A DNA stretch of 47,658 nucleotides from Armatimonadota bacterium. GTDB taxonomy: Bacteria > Sysuimicrobiota > Sysuimicrobiia > Sysuimicrobiales > Humicultoraceae. The position numbers were made by a program, and so were the translations under genes. Shown here piece by piece: positions 721-40,313 of the stretch. The notes beneath the pieces were generated by a model, which was not told where the DNA came from, ran no database searches, and was given only the letters and a program-made list of their open reading frames with translations. The DNA lies in assembly GCA_031081585.1 (NCBI GenBank), contig JAVHLY010000023.1, positions 1 to 47,658 of the forward strand. The letters run 5' to 3'. Numbering within the stretch: the first letter of the stretch is position 1; each line of letters begins with the position of its first letter.

Positions 721-1776
721 TCACGGGGAGACCGACAGGTGCCCGGGAGGCCCCTCCACGAGCGTGCCGATGCGGGCCGCCGCAGGCACCCCTCGATGCT
801 GCAGCGCCGCCTCCAGCCGGTCCACTCGCTCGGGAGGGACGGCCATCAGCAGGCCCCCGGAGGTCTGGGCGTCGGCCAGGAGGATGCGCACCTCCTCGGG
901 GATGGCCTCGTCGAACTGCACCCAGTCCGCCAGGAACTCCAGGTTCCGCGCCGTCCCCCCGGCCACCGCCCCGGCCCGCACCAGGTCGGCCGCCCCGGGC
1001 AGGACCGGCACCCGTCCCGCCTCCACCACCGCCGCCACCCCGCTGGCCAGCGCCAGCTCGTGGAGGTGGCCGAGCAGCCCGAACCCGGTGACGTCGGTGC
1101 AGGCGTGTACGCCCACCTCCAGCATGGCCTCGGCGGCCCCGCGGTTCAGCACCCCCATCAGCCGGATCGCCGCCTCCGCCGCCTCCACCGACGCCTTCCC
1201 CTGCTTGATCCCCGTGGTGATGGCGCCGATGCCGATGGGCTTGGTGAGCACCAGCACGTCGCCCGGCCGCCCCCCGGCGTTCGTCACCACCCGGTCCGGG
1301 TGGACCACGCCGGTGACCGCCAGCCCGTACTTCGGCTCGGGGTCGTCGACGGTATGGCCGCCCACGATGAGGACGCCGGCCTCCTGGGCTTTGGCCGCGC
1401 CGCCTTGCAGGATCTCGCCGAGCACGGTCAGCGGGAGCTTCCCGCGCGGCCACCCGACGATGTTGAGCCCGAGCAGCGGCCGGGCCCCCTTGGCGTAGAC
1501 GTCGGAGAGGGCGTTGGCCACGGCGATGGCCCCGTAGTGGTAGGGCTCGTCCACCACCGGCGTGAAGACATCCACCGTCTGCACGAGCGCCAGCTCGTCG
1601 GTCAGGCGGTAGACGGCGGCGTCGTCGCCGTGTTCGAACCCCACCAGCAGGCGGGGGTCACTGGGTTGTGGGAGGTGGCGCAGGACCTGCGCCAGGTCGG
1701 CCGGGCTGAGCTTCGACGCTCACCCCGCGCAGGCGACCGTGGCCGTGAGGCGGATGCGCTCACGCTGGTCGTCCAT
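721..1776 (-). CDS. selD: Selenide, water dikinase (selenophosphate synthase) with in-frame UGA (Sec19)
   Basis: SelD makes selenophosphate, the selenium donor for Sec-tRNA synthesis, from selenide and ATP. A simple ORF reading would start at 1644, but the same frame continues upstream through one TGA (1722-1720) to an ATG at 1776 with a good Shine-Dalgarno (AGGAGG, 6 bases upstream). The added N-terminus reads RLTATVACAG-U-ASKLSP, the exact active-site region of SelD in which Cys or Sec occupies the UGA position. Full length is 351 residues, normal for the family. The Gly-rich ATP-binding segments (VGFEHGDDAAVY, GGHTVDD, TDVTGFGLLGH) are present. A SECIS-like hairpin follows the UGA. The gene uses UGA as its stop too. 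It is divergent from the archease gene. Confidence 0.93.
1676..1694 (-). promoter_or_regulatory. bSECIS-like hairpin downstream of the selD UGA
   Basis: Read on the minus strand, 26-44 bases after the UGA, TGGCGCAG / CTGCGCCA form an 8-bp perfect stem closing a GUC loop. The apical GCAGGUCCUGC is almost the same as the E. coli fdhF SECIS tip (GCAGGUCUGC), whose loop G and U bind SelB. The UGA-to-loop distance is at the long end of the range known for bacterial SECIS elements. It lies within the coding sequence, as bacterial SECIS elements do. Confidence 0.75.
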
Positions 1777-35988: not shown

Positions 35989-38238
35989 TCACCCTCGCCG
36001 CCCCATGTGGTCGGCGTGGGCGGCGAAGAGGTGCCAGGTGCCGGGGACGCCCCGCAGCGTGTGGGTGCCGCGGTCCTCGAACCGGATGTCCGAGCCGGCC
36101 ACCAGGTCGCGCACCGTGCCGGTGACCAGCACCTCGCCCGGCGCGGCGGCGGCCGCGGCCCGCGCGCCCACGTGCACGGCGATGCCGGTGACCCGGTCGC
36201 CGCTCACCTCCACCTCGCCGGTGTGGACCCCGGCCCGCACCGCGATGCCCCAGCGGCGTACCGCCGCGGCGATGGCCAGCGCGCAGCGGATGGCCCGGCC
36301 CGGGCTGTCGAAGGTGGCCAGCCCCCCGTCGCCGGCCAGGTCCACTGCCCGGCCCCCGTAGCGGCCCAGCTCGTTGCGCACGAGGGCCTGGAAGTTGCCC
36401 AGGACGTCGCGCCACCGCCGGTCGCCCAGCTCGGCGGCCACCTCCGTGGAGCGGACGATGTCGATGAAGAGGACGGTGCGCAGCACCCGGTCGGGCTCGG
36501 CGTAGAGCCGTTCGCCGCGGTGGAGGCGGTAGGCGATCTGGAAGGTCTGCTGCTGCGACCGGGTGGTGGGACTGTGCGCAGCCAGGAAGCGCGCGGCGGC
36601 GACCAGCGTGTGCACGCCCTGCGCCGTGGGGCCGAGCGCCTGGAACTGGCGGACGGCGGCCTCCACCGCCTGGATGGCGTGGAAGATGCGGTTCTCGCGC
36701 AGGAGCAGGCTGCCCAGCGTGGCCAGCAAGCGCGCCGGGTCGCCGCCCCCGGAGAGGTAGCGGGCCACCAGGGCCCCGGCCTCGTTCACTTGCTGCTGCC
36801 GGTCCAGCGCCGCGCGTAGCGCCGCCAGCAGCGCCTCGGGGGCTTCGGGCGTCTCCCCCTCGGCCGGGGCGGGGAGGGGCGCCGGCGGCACGTTGAGGAA
36901 GCGGTCCAGGTAGACGCTCATCGCCGCGTCGAACACCCCGCGCACGAGCTCGGGGGAGCGCACCCGCCCGAGCGCCTGCTGCACCGCGTTGGCGAAGGAG
37001 AAGGTGTGCAGCGCCGTGTTCCAGTCCGTGAACTCGTTGGTCGTGGGGAAGCGGGCCAACCGCAGCGCCGCCGCGTAAGTCACCGTGGCGGCCACCGCCT
37101 CCGGGGCGGCGCCCTCGCGCAGCGCCGCCAGGAGCGCGTCGGCGATCGCCTGCGGGTCCTCGCCCAGGAGGACATCGACGAGGGCCGGGCCGCCCTCCCA
37201 GGGGACGGCGCCGTCCCCGGCCGTCGCCTGGGCCCGCAGGGCATCGGGGAGGCGCTCGAACGCCTCCTCCAGGATCGCCACCAGGTCGACGGGGTGGCGC
37301 CAGGCGCTCGACTCCTCCATGCGCTCGGCGCCTGCGCAGGCGCCCACGACGCTGGTGAGCACCATCTCCGCGCCCGCCCATCCGGCATGGTCGAGGGCCT
37401 CCAGGGCCTTCACCGTGAAGTCGACGACGTGGCCGTCGCTGAGGTAGCGGTGGTCGGTGGCGGCCGCCAGCAGCAGATCGGCCATCTGTGCGGGCGTGGC
37501 GCCGGCGCGCAGCGCCGAGACGACGCACCGCTCCGCGCCCTCGGCGTCCCGGACCTCGATGAAGCGGCGGTACCACTGCTTCAGCGCCCGCAGGCTGGCC
37601 CCCAGGGTGGGCAGGGGCCGCACCTCGAAGCGGGGCGCCTGCTCGAAGGTGTCGGCGGCCACGGCGGCCAGGCCGTGGTAGAGGGCCCGCGCCCGGTCCT
37701 CGCGGTCCAGCACCGGCAGCAGGTTGCGCAGGCAGGTGAGGATGGTGAGGCCGCTCCCCCATCCCGCCTTGCGGTGGCGCACGCCGAAGTCCAGCCCGAT
37801 GCGGAAGGCCTCGTCGGGGTCGTCGCCCGTCTCCAGCAGGGTGACGACCGCCTTGGCGATGACGAGCGGGATGTCGTACTCGAGCCCCTCGCACAGGCGC
37901 TCCCGCTGGTGGGCGCGCACGTCGCCCCGCGGCGTGACGTCCACCCACACCTCGCCGTCGCGGATCTCCACGGGGAAGGTGCGTACGTCGTCCGCCCACC
38001 GGTCGAACGTCCCGCCGCTGTGCAGGTCGAAGCGGGCGTGGTGCCAGTGGCAGGTGAGGATGCCGTCCTTGAGCGTCCCGCGGTGGAGCGGAAAGCCCAT
38101 GTGGGGGCAGCGGTTGTCGACAGCGAAGACCTGGTCGCCGTCCAGGAACAGGGCCAGCGTGTACCCGTCCGCCTGGACGACCAGGCGACCGGCGGCGCGC
38201 AACTCCTCCAGCGTGGCGACGCGCACGAAGCGGTCCAT
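35989..38238 (-). CDS. Rieske [2Fe-2S] / class III adenylate (guanylate) cyclase fusion protein
   Basis: A 749-residue cytoplasmic protein in three parts. Residues 1-110 are a Rieske domain with both ligand pairs intact: Cys44-x-His46 in RCPHMGFPLH and Cys63-x2-His66 in LTCHWHHARF. About 110-560 is a largely helical region (motifs AGWGSGLTILTCLRN, DAEGAERCVVSALRAG, FPTTNEFTDWNTALHTFSFA) found in stand-alone Rieske proteins of unknown function. Residues 585-745 are a class III cyclase with metal Asp593 (LFIDIVRST) and Asp637 (LAGDGGLATF) and the C-terminal GIAVHVGARAA...PGEVLVTGTVRDLVAGS. A redox- or iron-sensitive cAMP producer is inferred. A CRP-type box and an extended -10 lie just upstream; predicted transcript start is within a few bases of the ATG. 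Confidence 0.9.
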   Translation of the reverse strand: MDRFVRVATLEELRAAGRLVVQADGYTLALFLDGDQVFAVDNRCPHMGFPLHRGTLKDGILTCHWHHARFDLHSGGTFDRWADDVRTFPVEIRDGEVWVDVTPRGDVRAHQRERLCEGLEYDIPLVIAKAVVTLLETGDDPDEAFRIGLDFGVRHRKAGWGSGLTILTCLRNLLPVLDREDRARALYHGLAAVAADTFEQAPRFEVRPLPTLGASLRALKQWYRRFIEVRDAEGAERCVVSALRAGATPAQMADLLLAAATDHRYLSDGHVVDFTVKALEALDHAGWAGAEMVLTSVVGACAGAERMEESSAWRHPVDLVAILEEAFERLPDALRAQATAGDGAVPWEGGPALVDVLLGEDPQAIADALLAALREGAAPEAVAATVTYAAALRLARFPTTNEFTDWNTALHTFSFANAVQQALGRVRSPELVRGVFDAAMSVYLDRFLNVPPAPLPAPAEGETPEAPEALLAALRAALDRQQQVNEAGALVARYLSGGGDPARLLATLGSLLLRENRIFHAIQAVEAAVRQFQALGPTAQGVHTLVAAARFLAAHSPTTRSQQQTFQIAYRLHRGERLYAEPDRVLRTVLFIDIVRSTEVAAELGDRRWRDVLGNFQALVRNELGRYGGRAVDLAGDGGLATFDSPGRAIRCALAIAAAVRRWGIAVRAGVHTGEVEVSGDRVTGIAVHVGARAAAAAAPGEVLVTGTVRDLVAGSDIRFEDRGTHTLRGVPGTWHLFAAHADHMGRRG

Positions 38239-38379: not shown

Positions 38380-39141
38380 ATGCGCGGCGTGCGGCTCGAC
38401 CCGGAACGGCGGGAGGTGCGGACGGTCCTCCGGCATGCGCTGTTGCGCGGGTCCGTCCTCCTCGACGTGGGGTGCGGGGACGGCCGGCTGACTCGCCGCC
38501 TGGCCCCCCTCGTCCGGTCGGCGGTGGGTATCGACCCCGATCCCGACCAGGTCGCCCGGGCCCGGACACGGCTGCGACGGTGGCAGGACAGGGTGCGGCT
38601 GGAGGTGGGCCGCGCCGAGGCGCTCCCCTTCCCGGATGCCACCTTCACCGCCGTCCTCTTCTCGTGGTCGCTCTGATGCATCGCCCACCGGGGCATGGTC
38701 CATGCCCTGACAGAGGCGCACCGGGTCCTGCAGCCTGAGGGCTGGCTCCTGGACCTGCGGCCCGACCGTGACCCGGGCGGCCGGCGGACCAAGTACCTGC
38801 CCGTCGAAGTGCGCGTGGCCGGCCGGGCGGTCCCTGTCGGCCACCTCCACGAGCGTGGCGACTACCACGCCGACTATGTCGCAAGCGAGCGGGCGGTCGA
38901 GCGGGTGATCCGGCAGGGGCTCTTCGGCTTCGCAGGGCGGGAGCAGTTCATGCTGGCCGCCGTCTTCCGCTCCCTGGCCGCGCTGGAGGAGTTTCTGCGT
39001 CGGGAGTGGACGGCCGCCCACCTCCCGCCGCAGACGCGCGAGCGCCTGATCCGGGAGCTGCGGCGGGACCCGGACGCCCGCATCGTCGTACGCGACCCGT
39101 TCTGCCTGACGGTCCTGCGGAAGCGGGAAGATCGCCCCTGA
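38380..39141 (+). CDS. Class I SAM-dependent methyltransferase, candidate selenoprotein (Sec99)
   Basis: Starts at ATG 38380 with GGAGG 7 bases upstream. Motif I is LLDVGCGDGRL (27-37), then GIDPDPDQVARAR (acidic motif II) and LPFPDATFTAVLFSWSL. Next comes an in-frame TGA (38674-38676) and the same frame continues CIAHRGMVHALTEAHRVLQP, the expected next methyltransferase motif, to a stop at 39141. Total 253 residues. Relatives as I recall them read ...WSLCC... here, so the UGA falls on a conserved Cys. A SECIS-like hairpin follows. Homology on both sides without any gap argues against a decayed gene. Substrate unknown; a metalloid or thiol is possible for a Sec/Cys pair. It overlaps the start of the MFS gene. 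Confidence 0.82.
38690..38708 (+). promoter_or_regulatory. bSECIS-like hairpin downstream of the methyltransferase UGA
   Basis: GGGCATG / CATGCCC form a 7-bp perfect stem (plus an outer G-U pair) with a GUC loop, 14-32 bases after the UGA. The loop bases GU fall 22-23 bases after UGA, nearly the same spacing as in E. coli fdhF. The apical GGUCC is identical to that of the selD element. Confidence 0.75.
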
Positions 39142-40313
39142 GCCGATCGCGCTGGTGGCTGCTCGCGGCCGCCACGGTCCACCAGGCCGGGCTGACCGTC
39201 GTGCGGTTCGGGCTCCCGGCCATCGTCGGCTTCATCCGCGCCGACTTCGGCCTCTCGCTGGTCCAGGTCGGGGTCCTGCTGGCCGCCTTCGACCTGGGCG
39301 CCCTGCTGACATTCCTTCCCACGGGCGCGCTCACAGACCGTCTGGGCGAGCGGCGGGTCATGGCCCTGGGCGCGGCAACCACGGGCGTGGTGGTGGGCCT
39401 GGCTGCCGCGGCGCCGGGTTTCCTTCCCCTGGTGCTCCTGATGGCCGCAGCCGGCGTGGGGTTCCCCTCCAGCCAGATCACCGGCAGCCACGCCGTGGTG
39501 GGCTGGTTCCCCGCGGAAGAGCGCGGGGTGGCCATGGGGATCCGTCAGGCCGGCCTGCCGCTCGGCGGCTTCGCCGGGGCGCTCCTCCTGCCGTGGCTGG
39601 CCGAGGCGTGGGGATGGCGCACGGCGCTGCTGGCCTCGGGCCTGGCGGCGCTGGTCGCCGCGGCGGTGACCTGGCTCGTCGTGCCCGGGCTGGCCGGGAC
39701 GGGCGCGCCGCCGCCCGCGACAGGGCTGGGCGCCACCGCCCGGCGGTTCGCCGGCGACCCGATCCTGCGATCCACGACGGCGGCCGCGTGCCTGCTGGTG
39801 GTGAGCCAGTTCAGCCTGACCGGCTACCTGCCGCTGTACGCCGTCGACCGCTTCGGGTGGGCGCTCGCCCCCGCCGCGCGCCTCCTCCTGCTGGTGCACC
39901 TGGGCGGCGTGGCCGGCCGTCTGGCCTGGGGGTGGCTCTCCGACTGGCACTTCCGCGGCGACCGGCGGCGGCCGCTGGCGCTGGCCGCGCTGGCCGGGGG
40001 CGGGGCGGCGGCGGCGCTGGCCGCGGTGGGGGCGTCCGGCCACCTCTCCCCGGCTGCCGCCGCACTGCTCGCCTTTGCCGGGGGCTTCACGTTCCTGGGG
40101 TGGAACGGGCTCGCGCTCACCGCGGTGGCCGAGCGCGCCGCCGTGGCGCGGGCCGCCACCCTGGGGGTGCTCTTCACGGTCCTCTACGTCTTCACGATGC
40201 TGGCCTCCCCGGCATTCGGCGGGCTGGTCGAGCGCGTGGGGTACCCGCCGGCCTGGCTGGCCCTGGTGGGGGTGCAGGCGGCGGCGGTATGGGCGGTGGG
40301 GTGGCGCCGATAG
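39138..40313 (+). CDS. Major facilitator superfamily transporter
   Basis: A membrane protein of about 391 residues with 12 predicted helices. The MFS signature between helices 2 and 3 is GALTDRLGERRVMALG, and a matching RLAWGWLSDWHFRGDRRRPL lies in the second half. GVAMGIRQAGLPLGGFAGAL is typical of NNP/oxalate-formate-like carriers. The start is uncertain: the frame meets the methyltransferase stop as CTGA with a CTG at 39138, the only start-like codon just before the first helix, while the next in-frame GTG upstream (39006) lies deep in the methyltransferase gene. Overlap suggests co-transcription with the methyltransferase. Substrate unknown. Confidence 0.85.
   Translation: MSRSRWWLLAAATVHQAGLTVVRFGLPAIVGFIRADFGLSLVQVGVLLAAFDLGALLTFLPTGALTDRLGERRVMALGAATTGVVVGLAAAAPGFLPLVLLMAAAGVGFPSSQITGSHAVVGWFPAEERGVAMGIRQAGLPLGGFAGALLLPWLAEAWGWRTALLASGLAALVAAAVTWLVVPGLAGTGAPPPATGLGATARRFAGDPILRSTTAAACLLVVSQFSLTGYLPLYAVDRFGWALAPAARLLLLVHLGGVAGRLAWGWLSDWHFRGDRRRPLALAALAGGGAAAALAAVGASGHLSPAAAALLAFAGGFTFLGWNGLALTAVAERAAVARAATLGVLFTVLYVFTMLASPAFGGLVERVGYPPAWLALVGVQAAAVWAVGWRR

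Follow-up and report, generated by a model that had tools for sequence, protein, structure and literature searches.

A bacterial methyltransferase family with adjacent in-frame UGA codons, predicted to be read as selenocysteine, at a His-His site

The window analysed here, a stretch of 47,658 nucleotides from an Armatimonadota bacterium (contig JAVHLY010000023.1), contains a gene that we predict with high confidence to encode a selenoprotein of an apparently undescribed methyltransferase family. Comparison with its relatives suggests that the UGA at 38674 is decoded as selenocysteine (Sec) through SelB, tRNA-Sec and a hairpin, and that a Sec-Sec pair (UU) is the usual state of the family. We also consider it probable that two adjacent UGA codons are both read as Sec by means of one coding-region SECIS element, at the His-His site of methyltransferases, and that the gene in the window is a Sec-Cys derivative.

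Results

A methyltransferase frame with one internal TGA

The gene (38380..39141, plus strand) is predicted to encode a class I SAM-dependent methyltransferase of 253 residues with Sec99-Cys100. As a previous sequence-only reading of this DNA had described, it starts at the ATG at 38380, and a TGA at 38674-38676 is the sole interruption before the terminal TGA at 39139-39141. A Shine-Dalgarno-like stretch (GGAGGTGA) lies just 5′ of the ATG. This internal codon, on the plus strand, corresponds to residue 99 and is followed by TGC (38677..38679, plus strand; Cys100), giving SWSL-U-C as the local product. The SAM-binding motif I, VLLDVGCGDGR (residues 26-36; 38455..38487, plus strand), was located by Pfam match and alignment. 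The methyltransferase signal that had been noticed on either side of the TGA was borne out, since Pfam methyltransferase models span the codon and Methyltransf_25 scored 78 bits when read through (residues 28-121) compared to 60 bits when only the upstream piece was used. The Pfam cut-offs of the class (Methyltransf_11/25) were both passed, with 78.1 versus 27 and 75.9 versus 21.2 bits, and the motif I core GCGDG is present.

An open frame around a TGA is by itself weak evidence for Sec: the window is rich in GC, and 39 of its TGA codons are flanked on either side by as much open frame as this one. It is the comparative evidence across relatives, presented below, that raises the pattern of TGA plus hairpin above chance.

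An MFS transporter frame (39006-40313, plus strand) lies directly 3′ of the gene. Its sole usual start near the junction is a GTG deep within the methyltransferase gene, and translation may begin at CTG 39138, overlapping the methyltransferase stop (CTGA). This adjacency was not kept in the relatives. On the other side, 35989-38238 (minus strand), in divergent orientation to the methyltransferase gene, encodes a large protein of 749 aa with a Rieske-type-like domain at its start and a nucleotide-cyclase-type-like domain at its end. Part of this protein is matched by a gene close to the methyltransferase paralogue of G023.

A family with two consecutive TGA codons

Genome searches retrieved 27 related genes, 13 in the phylum of the window and 14 in a second phylum. 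A search of 60 relatives gave 12 full-length orthologues besides the window gene (37-56% identity), all carrying two consecutive TGA codons, and the 43 genomes searched in the window's phylum contained 13 genes and one paralogue. In the second phylum, the gene was present in 14 out of 16 genomes, including 7- and 9-contig assemblies, with TGATGA in every case. Thus, TGA occupied the position of residue 99 in 28 out of 28 family members and was followed by a second TGA in 27 of them, versus TGC in the window gene, a codon known from one draft assembly only. The internal stops were TGA in 55 out of 55 cases and TAA or TAG was never found at the Sec site of the 28 genes, whereas the terminal stop of the same genes was TGA in only 8, the others ending in TAG or TAA.

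In the gene tree, the window gene was nested among Sec-Sec genes (fork support 97/99), and for this reason its Sec-Cys pair is most simply explained as a derived form of the Sec-Sec family. The patchy distribution of the gene in the window's phylum and a tree that mixes families point to loss and transfer.

Purifying selection on either side of the UGA was evident from dN/dS values of 0.16-0.45 both 5′ and 3′ of it (five pairs, those with high dS being rough), and the in-frame UGA was conserved together with coding conservation on both sides in 28 out of 28 genes. These results bear on whether the gene is simply decayed, either as a nonsense-broken pseudogene or through a TGA that is a sequencing error. 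The window does come from a draft assembly and the family decays somewhere, G025 carrying a C-terminal remnant that lacks both the N-terminal half and the Sec site (L167, G025:C56 14221-14619), apparently a decayed methyltransferase copy. Decay or error would nevertheless have to place a TGA at the same codon of 28 genes from two phyla, double it in 27, never use TAA or TAG and leave dN/dS well below 1 on both sides, which makes this explanation extremely unlikely.

A conserved hairpin downstream of the UGA codons

The SECIS-like structure that the sequence-only reading had placed 3′ of the TGA was found at 38691..38707 (plus strand). This hairpin, GGGCATGGTCCATGCCC (GGGCAUG-GUC-CAUGCCC), starts 14 nt after the TGA and has a 7-bp stem and a 3-nt GUC loop, which lies 21 nt from the first UGA codon and 18 nt from the second codon. 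The published bSECIS model asks for a loop of 3-9 nt, a stem of 4-16 bp, a G within the first two loop positions, a distance of 16-37 nt from the UGA and an MFE of at most -7.5. The hairpin falls inside these limits, with a loop of 3 nt that opens with G, a stem of 7 bp, a distance of 21 nt and an MFE of -9.9 kcal/mol as a 17-mer. Taken alone, its folding energy was unremarkable, with a z of -1.1 and 30 out of 200 shuffles as good. A search for TGATGA-N11-GGGCATGGTNCATGCCC, with two mismatches allowed, gave 14 matches in 43 genomes, all of them in this gene or its paralogue, while the reversed control gave none in the same genomes. No match to the pattern was found in viral contigs.

Codon usage within the hairpin was fixed. 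Specifically, His was encoded by CAT in 13 out of 13 genes (background 32%), and Ala, Gly and Leu by GCC, GGC and CTG, respectively, each in 13 out of 13; these sequences are related and not independent, and the counts carry no exact probabilities. The codon preceding them ended in G in all 13 genes, though the amino acid varied (Arg, Lys, Glu, Ser), and the only free third codon position was in the loop. At the sequence level, the fixed synonymous sites demonstrate selection on the hairpin RNA itself. Across the 28 genes, six of the seven stem pairs were invariant, and so uninformative on pairing, for or against, while the seventh showed one compensatory change from G-C to A-U, in G386. In the second phylum, the loop was GGG instead of GUC in all 14 genes (L171, L172, L182-L193). 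The SECIS of E. coli fdhF carries a bulged U, which the methyltransferase hairpin lacks.

The hairpin also contains an ATG (38695) that opens a 148-aa frame and whose Met is invariant in the family. Translation could in principle stop at the UGA and restart there, the two fragments then assembling. We regard this as very improbable. No Shine-Dalgarno-like stretch of the kind seen before 38380 precedes this ATG, and the break would split the active-site loop. Moreover, the stops are always TGA, and the hairpin shows no variation at its synonymous sites. The same Met occurs in His-His relatives that have no stop at all, indicating that it is kept for structural reasons.

Selenocysteine machinery

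The genome to which the window belongs (2.88 Mb, 96% complete) encodes SelA, SelB, SelD and tRNA-Sec. A look-up of selA, selB and tRNA-Sec had been proposed, and all three were found on one common contig, with SelA at 561 bits (cut-off 268), SelB at 364 bits (cut-off 242) and tRNA-Sec at 78.7 bits. In addition, selD is present in the window itself (721..1776, minus strand; 351 residues; TIGR00476, 374.6 bits, cut-off 125) and is itself a selenoprotein gene, its one internal TGA (1720-1722) falling at the catalytic site, CAGUASKL. Its SECIS, GGCGCAG-GUC-CUGCGCC, has the same stem size (7 bp) and GUC loop as the methyltransferase hairpin. Gene callers would shorten this selD.

Among other genomes carrying the methyltransferase gene, SelB was present in the two second-phylum genomes tested. 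SelB above the cut-off was not found in five carriers, all less than 90% complete (G005, G007, G015, G037 and G042), and tRNA-Sec was not found in five (G005, G015, G029, G037 and G042). G007 had a tRNA-Sec despite having no SelB above the cut-off, and G029, 93% complete and without tRNA-Sec, had its SelB at a contig end. Another relative, G040, carries a formate dehydrogenase gene with a UGA and a GGUC stretch in a hairpin 3′ of it. In this genome, SelB, tRNA-Sec, SelD and a Sec formate dehydrogenase form a second, different Sec locus (L149, contig C34), apart from the other selB and tRNA-Sec on contig C11.

With the machinery encoded in the genome, TGA in 28 out of 28 genes and a hairpin conserved at synonymous sites, the earlier claim of a selenoprotein was upheld. 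A Sec reading of TGA 38674-38676 is very likely on comparative grounds, and we infer that Sec is actually inserted at this UGA.

The second UGA deserves separate consideration, as in the TGATGA genes the first UGA alone might specify Sec while the second is read otherwise, for example through near-cognate insertion of Trp or Cys. The window gene has Cys at the second position, two codons at a spacing of 3 nt would depend on one hairpin and Sec insertion in E. coli reaches just 30-40% per UGA (PMC4513850), all of which would favour a single Sec. Against it, 27 of the 28 genes have TGA as the second codon and none has TGG, although TGC or TGT would have been available if Cys were enough. In addition, the loop lies 21 and 18 nt from the two codons, in both cases inside the 16-37 nt range of bSECIS elements. 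A single Sec in these genes thus seems improbable to us, and two Sec residues remain the preferred reading.

The predicted Sec pair takes the place of a His pair

An AF2 model of the read-through product (pLDDT 92.7, 13 sequences) showed a class I methyltransferase fold, with YcgJ, TleD, AtmM, RebM and SpnF as the nearest solved folds and residues 99-100 after strand beta-4. Non-Sec relatives align with this loop without gaps (SLHHVPAEFMDKAL versus SLUCIAHRGMVHAL), and the closest of them carry His-His, as "SLHHV", at the Sec-Sec site. A scan of the GTDB collection, with patterns that contained Cys codons and so could not detect TGA forms, was used just for gathering non-Sec relatives. In the 53 non-Sec relatives tabulated, His-His was the commonest residue pair (10), Cys was found at the first position alone in five and Cys-Cys in none. 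RebM has HH at the site matching the Sec pair, which we take to be its catalytic histidines. Because the His-His relatives align ungapped, the predicted Sec pair is, in alignment terms, a replacement of a His pair and not of a Cys pair. By homology with these enzymes, the loop after beta-4 probably lines the methyl-acceptor site. Positions 99 and 100 were the only invariant Cys/Sec columns in 16 sequences.

This result departs from the expectation of the sequence-only reading that related methyltransferases carry Cys-Cys here: the family is Sec-Sec in 27 out of 28 genes and its nearest non-Sec relatives are His-His. Sec facing a Cys of non-Sec homologues is a usual discovery criterion of selenoproteins and not a defining property, and it is not what we observed, the relatives being His-His, sometimes with one Cys. 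A rule counting the lack of Cys at position 99 in homologues as evidence against Sec would have wrongly rejected the finding. That the family has two adjacent UGA codons could not be seen from the one sequence.

Relationship to known families

None of the NCBIfam models passed its cut-off for the window protein and PHROGs contained no fitting family. The class I SAM domain is common to the DVU_1556 family methyltransferases (NF045667), in which membership was ruled out by a score of 58.8 bits (cut-off 155), and to CpaM (NF043040; 49 bits, cut-off 180). The methyltransferase/UXPK-star double selenoprotein (NF047649; 50 bits, cut-off 460) shares with our family both this domain and two Sec residues. 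In our family, the predicted Sec residues stand side by side in the active-site loop of the methyltransferase. MduS (NF045649) also combines a Methyltransf_25 domain with two Sec residues per protein, in a CxxU motif (Table 1, PMC13188914). It differs by having CxxU instead of UU and a longer model (338 positions), and a score of 25.6 bits versus a cut-off of 380 ruled out identity. ArsM (NF008823, NF041536 and NF041537) is an arsenite methyltransferase with essential chalcogen residues that uses three Cys, whereas the window family has no other invariant Cys beyond positions 99-100. Since this feature is missing and the ArsM models fail (22.9 bits versus 263 for NF008823), the protein is not an ArsM. 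Sec forms of ArsM do exist, with the motif UxxG (PMC13188914).

The best fold and sequence matches were RebM, AtmM, TleD and the SLHHV relatives, which share the ungapped loop with its Met and Ala-Leu but have His-His (Cys-His in TleD) in place of Sec-Sec and no in-frame UGA. Two consecutive Sec residues are also found in algal PDI_e (GUGUU motif). This eukaryotic protein has a thioredoxin fold and a SECIS of the eukaryotic type, in contrast to a bacterial methyltransferase with one coding-region SECIS directly after both codons. Eukaryote-type SECIS elements sit in the 3′ UTR. A 2020 study reported PDI_e to be the first protein in which one Sec directly follows another (PMC7539508), and it was the one Sec-Sec protein that we found in the literature, where our search, of incomplete coverage, gave no tandem or adjacent bacterial Sec. 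Similarly, neither a motif of adjacent Sec-Sec nor a methyltransferase matching ours is among the 119 prokaryotic selenoprotein families inventoried in 2026 (PMC13188914), and MduS and the fusions in that inventory are distinct from our protein. As far as could be checked, this would be a new selenoprotein family, and neither a double UGA with one coding-region SECIS nor a His-His to Sec-Sec exchange has been described in bacteria.

Discussion

The data presented here are consistent with a model in which SelB and tRNA-Sec would decode UGA 38674 as Sec, guided by the hairpin 14 nt downstream. In the usual state of the family, two consecutive UGA codons would be read with one SECIS to give a vicinal Sec-Sec pair, and in the window species UGC would have replaced the second UGA, giving Sec-Cys. 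The pair would be placed in the loop after beta-4, exactly at the His-His site of class I methyltransferases, where two selenolates could hold or attack a soft substrate that then receives a methyl group from SAM, following an ArsM-like logic in an enzyme that is not ArsM. Selenium, standing where the His pair normally is, would then assume the acceptor role in a SAM methyltransferase.

As for the nature of the substrate, we tentatively propose that the selenolate pair holds or attacks a chalcogenide or persulfide, a trivalent metalloid or a thiophilic metal before methylation, and the metalloid, mercury or thiol species suggested in the sequence-only reading is a reasonable guess. No operon partners were conserved across genera. 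In two genomes, G028 and G031, only a few bases separate the start of the gene from a preceding one for an MBL-fold plus rhodanese protein, a kind that handles persulfides. In G398, genes for a heavy-metal P-type ATPase and for a pump of the CusA/CzcA type are close by; these sulfur and metal links come from few genomes each. In G026, an AhpD-like selenoprotein gene is located about 2 kb from the methyltransferase gene. This peroxidase-related gene (L139:3484-4086) has an in-frame TGA, in RCTYUTLVHG, and scored 105.7 bits (TIGR01926, cut-off 81.8).

It is also quite possible, though we would not call it probable, that the protein is a selenoprotein acting on an ordinary small-molecule acceptor and not on a metal(loid) or chalcogen, with Sec standing in for the His pair either as the nucleophile or, through a Sec-Sec or Sec-Cys bridge that controls activity, as a redox switch. 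Small-molecule methyltransferases (RebM, AtmM and TleD) are its nearest matches among solved folds, neighbours that are not conserved are expected for a stand-alone enzyme and an adjacent dichalcogenide could serve as a switch. However, a selenolate at the methyl-acceptor site would be easily methylated itself unless it had a special role, and we are not aware of a characterised selenoenzyme of this kind that works on ordinary O or N acceptors.

Whatever the acceptor, the UGA pair was kept in 27 genes of two phyla although Sec insertion is costly in bacteria, which argues for a strong need for two adjacent selenols. The family poses the question of whether, and how, one SECIS can load SelB for two successive codons, and, with Sec at the His-His site of a methyltransferase, it lies beyond the usual redox folds. 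Such genes are split by gene callers and would escape searches that look for Sec only where there is a Cys, and selenoproteomes may therefore be underestimated.
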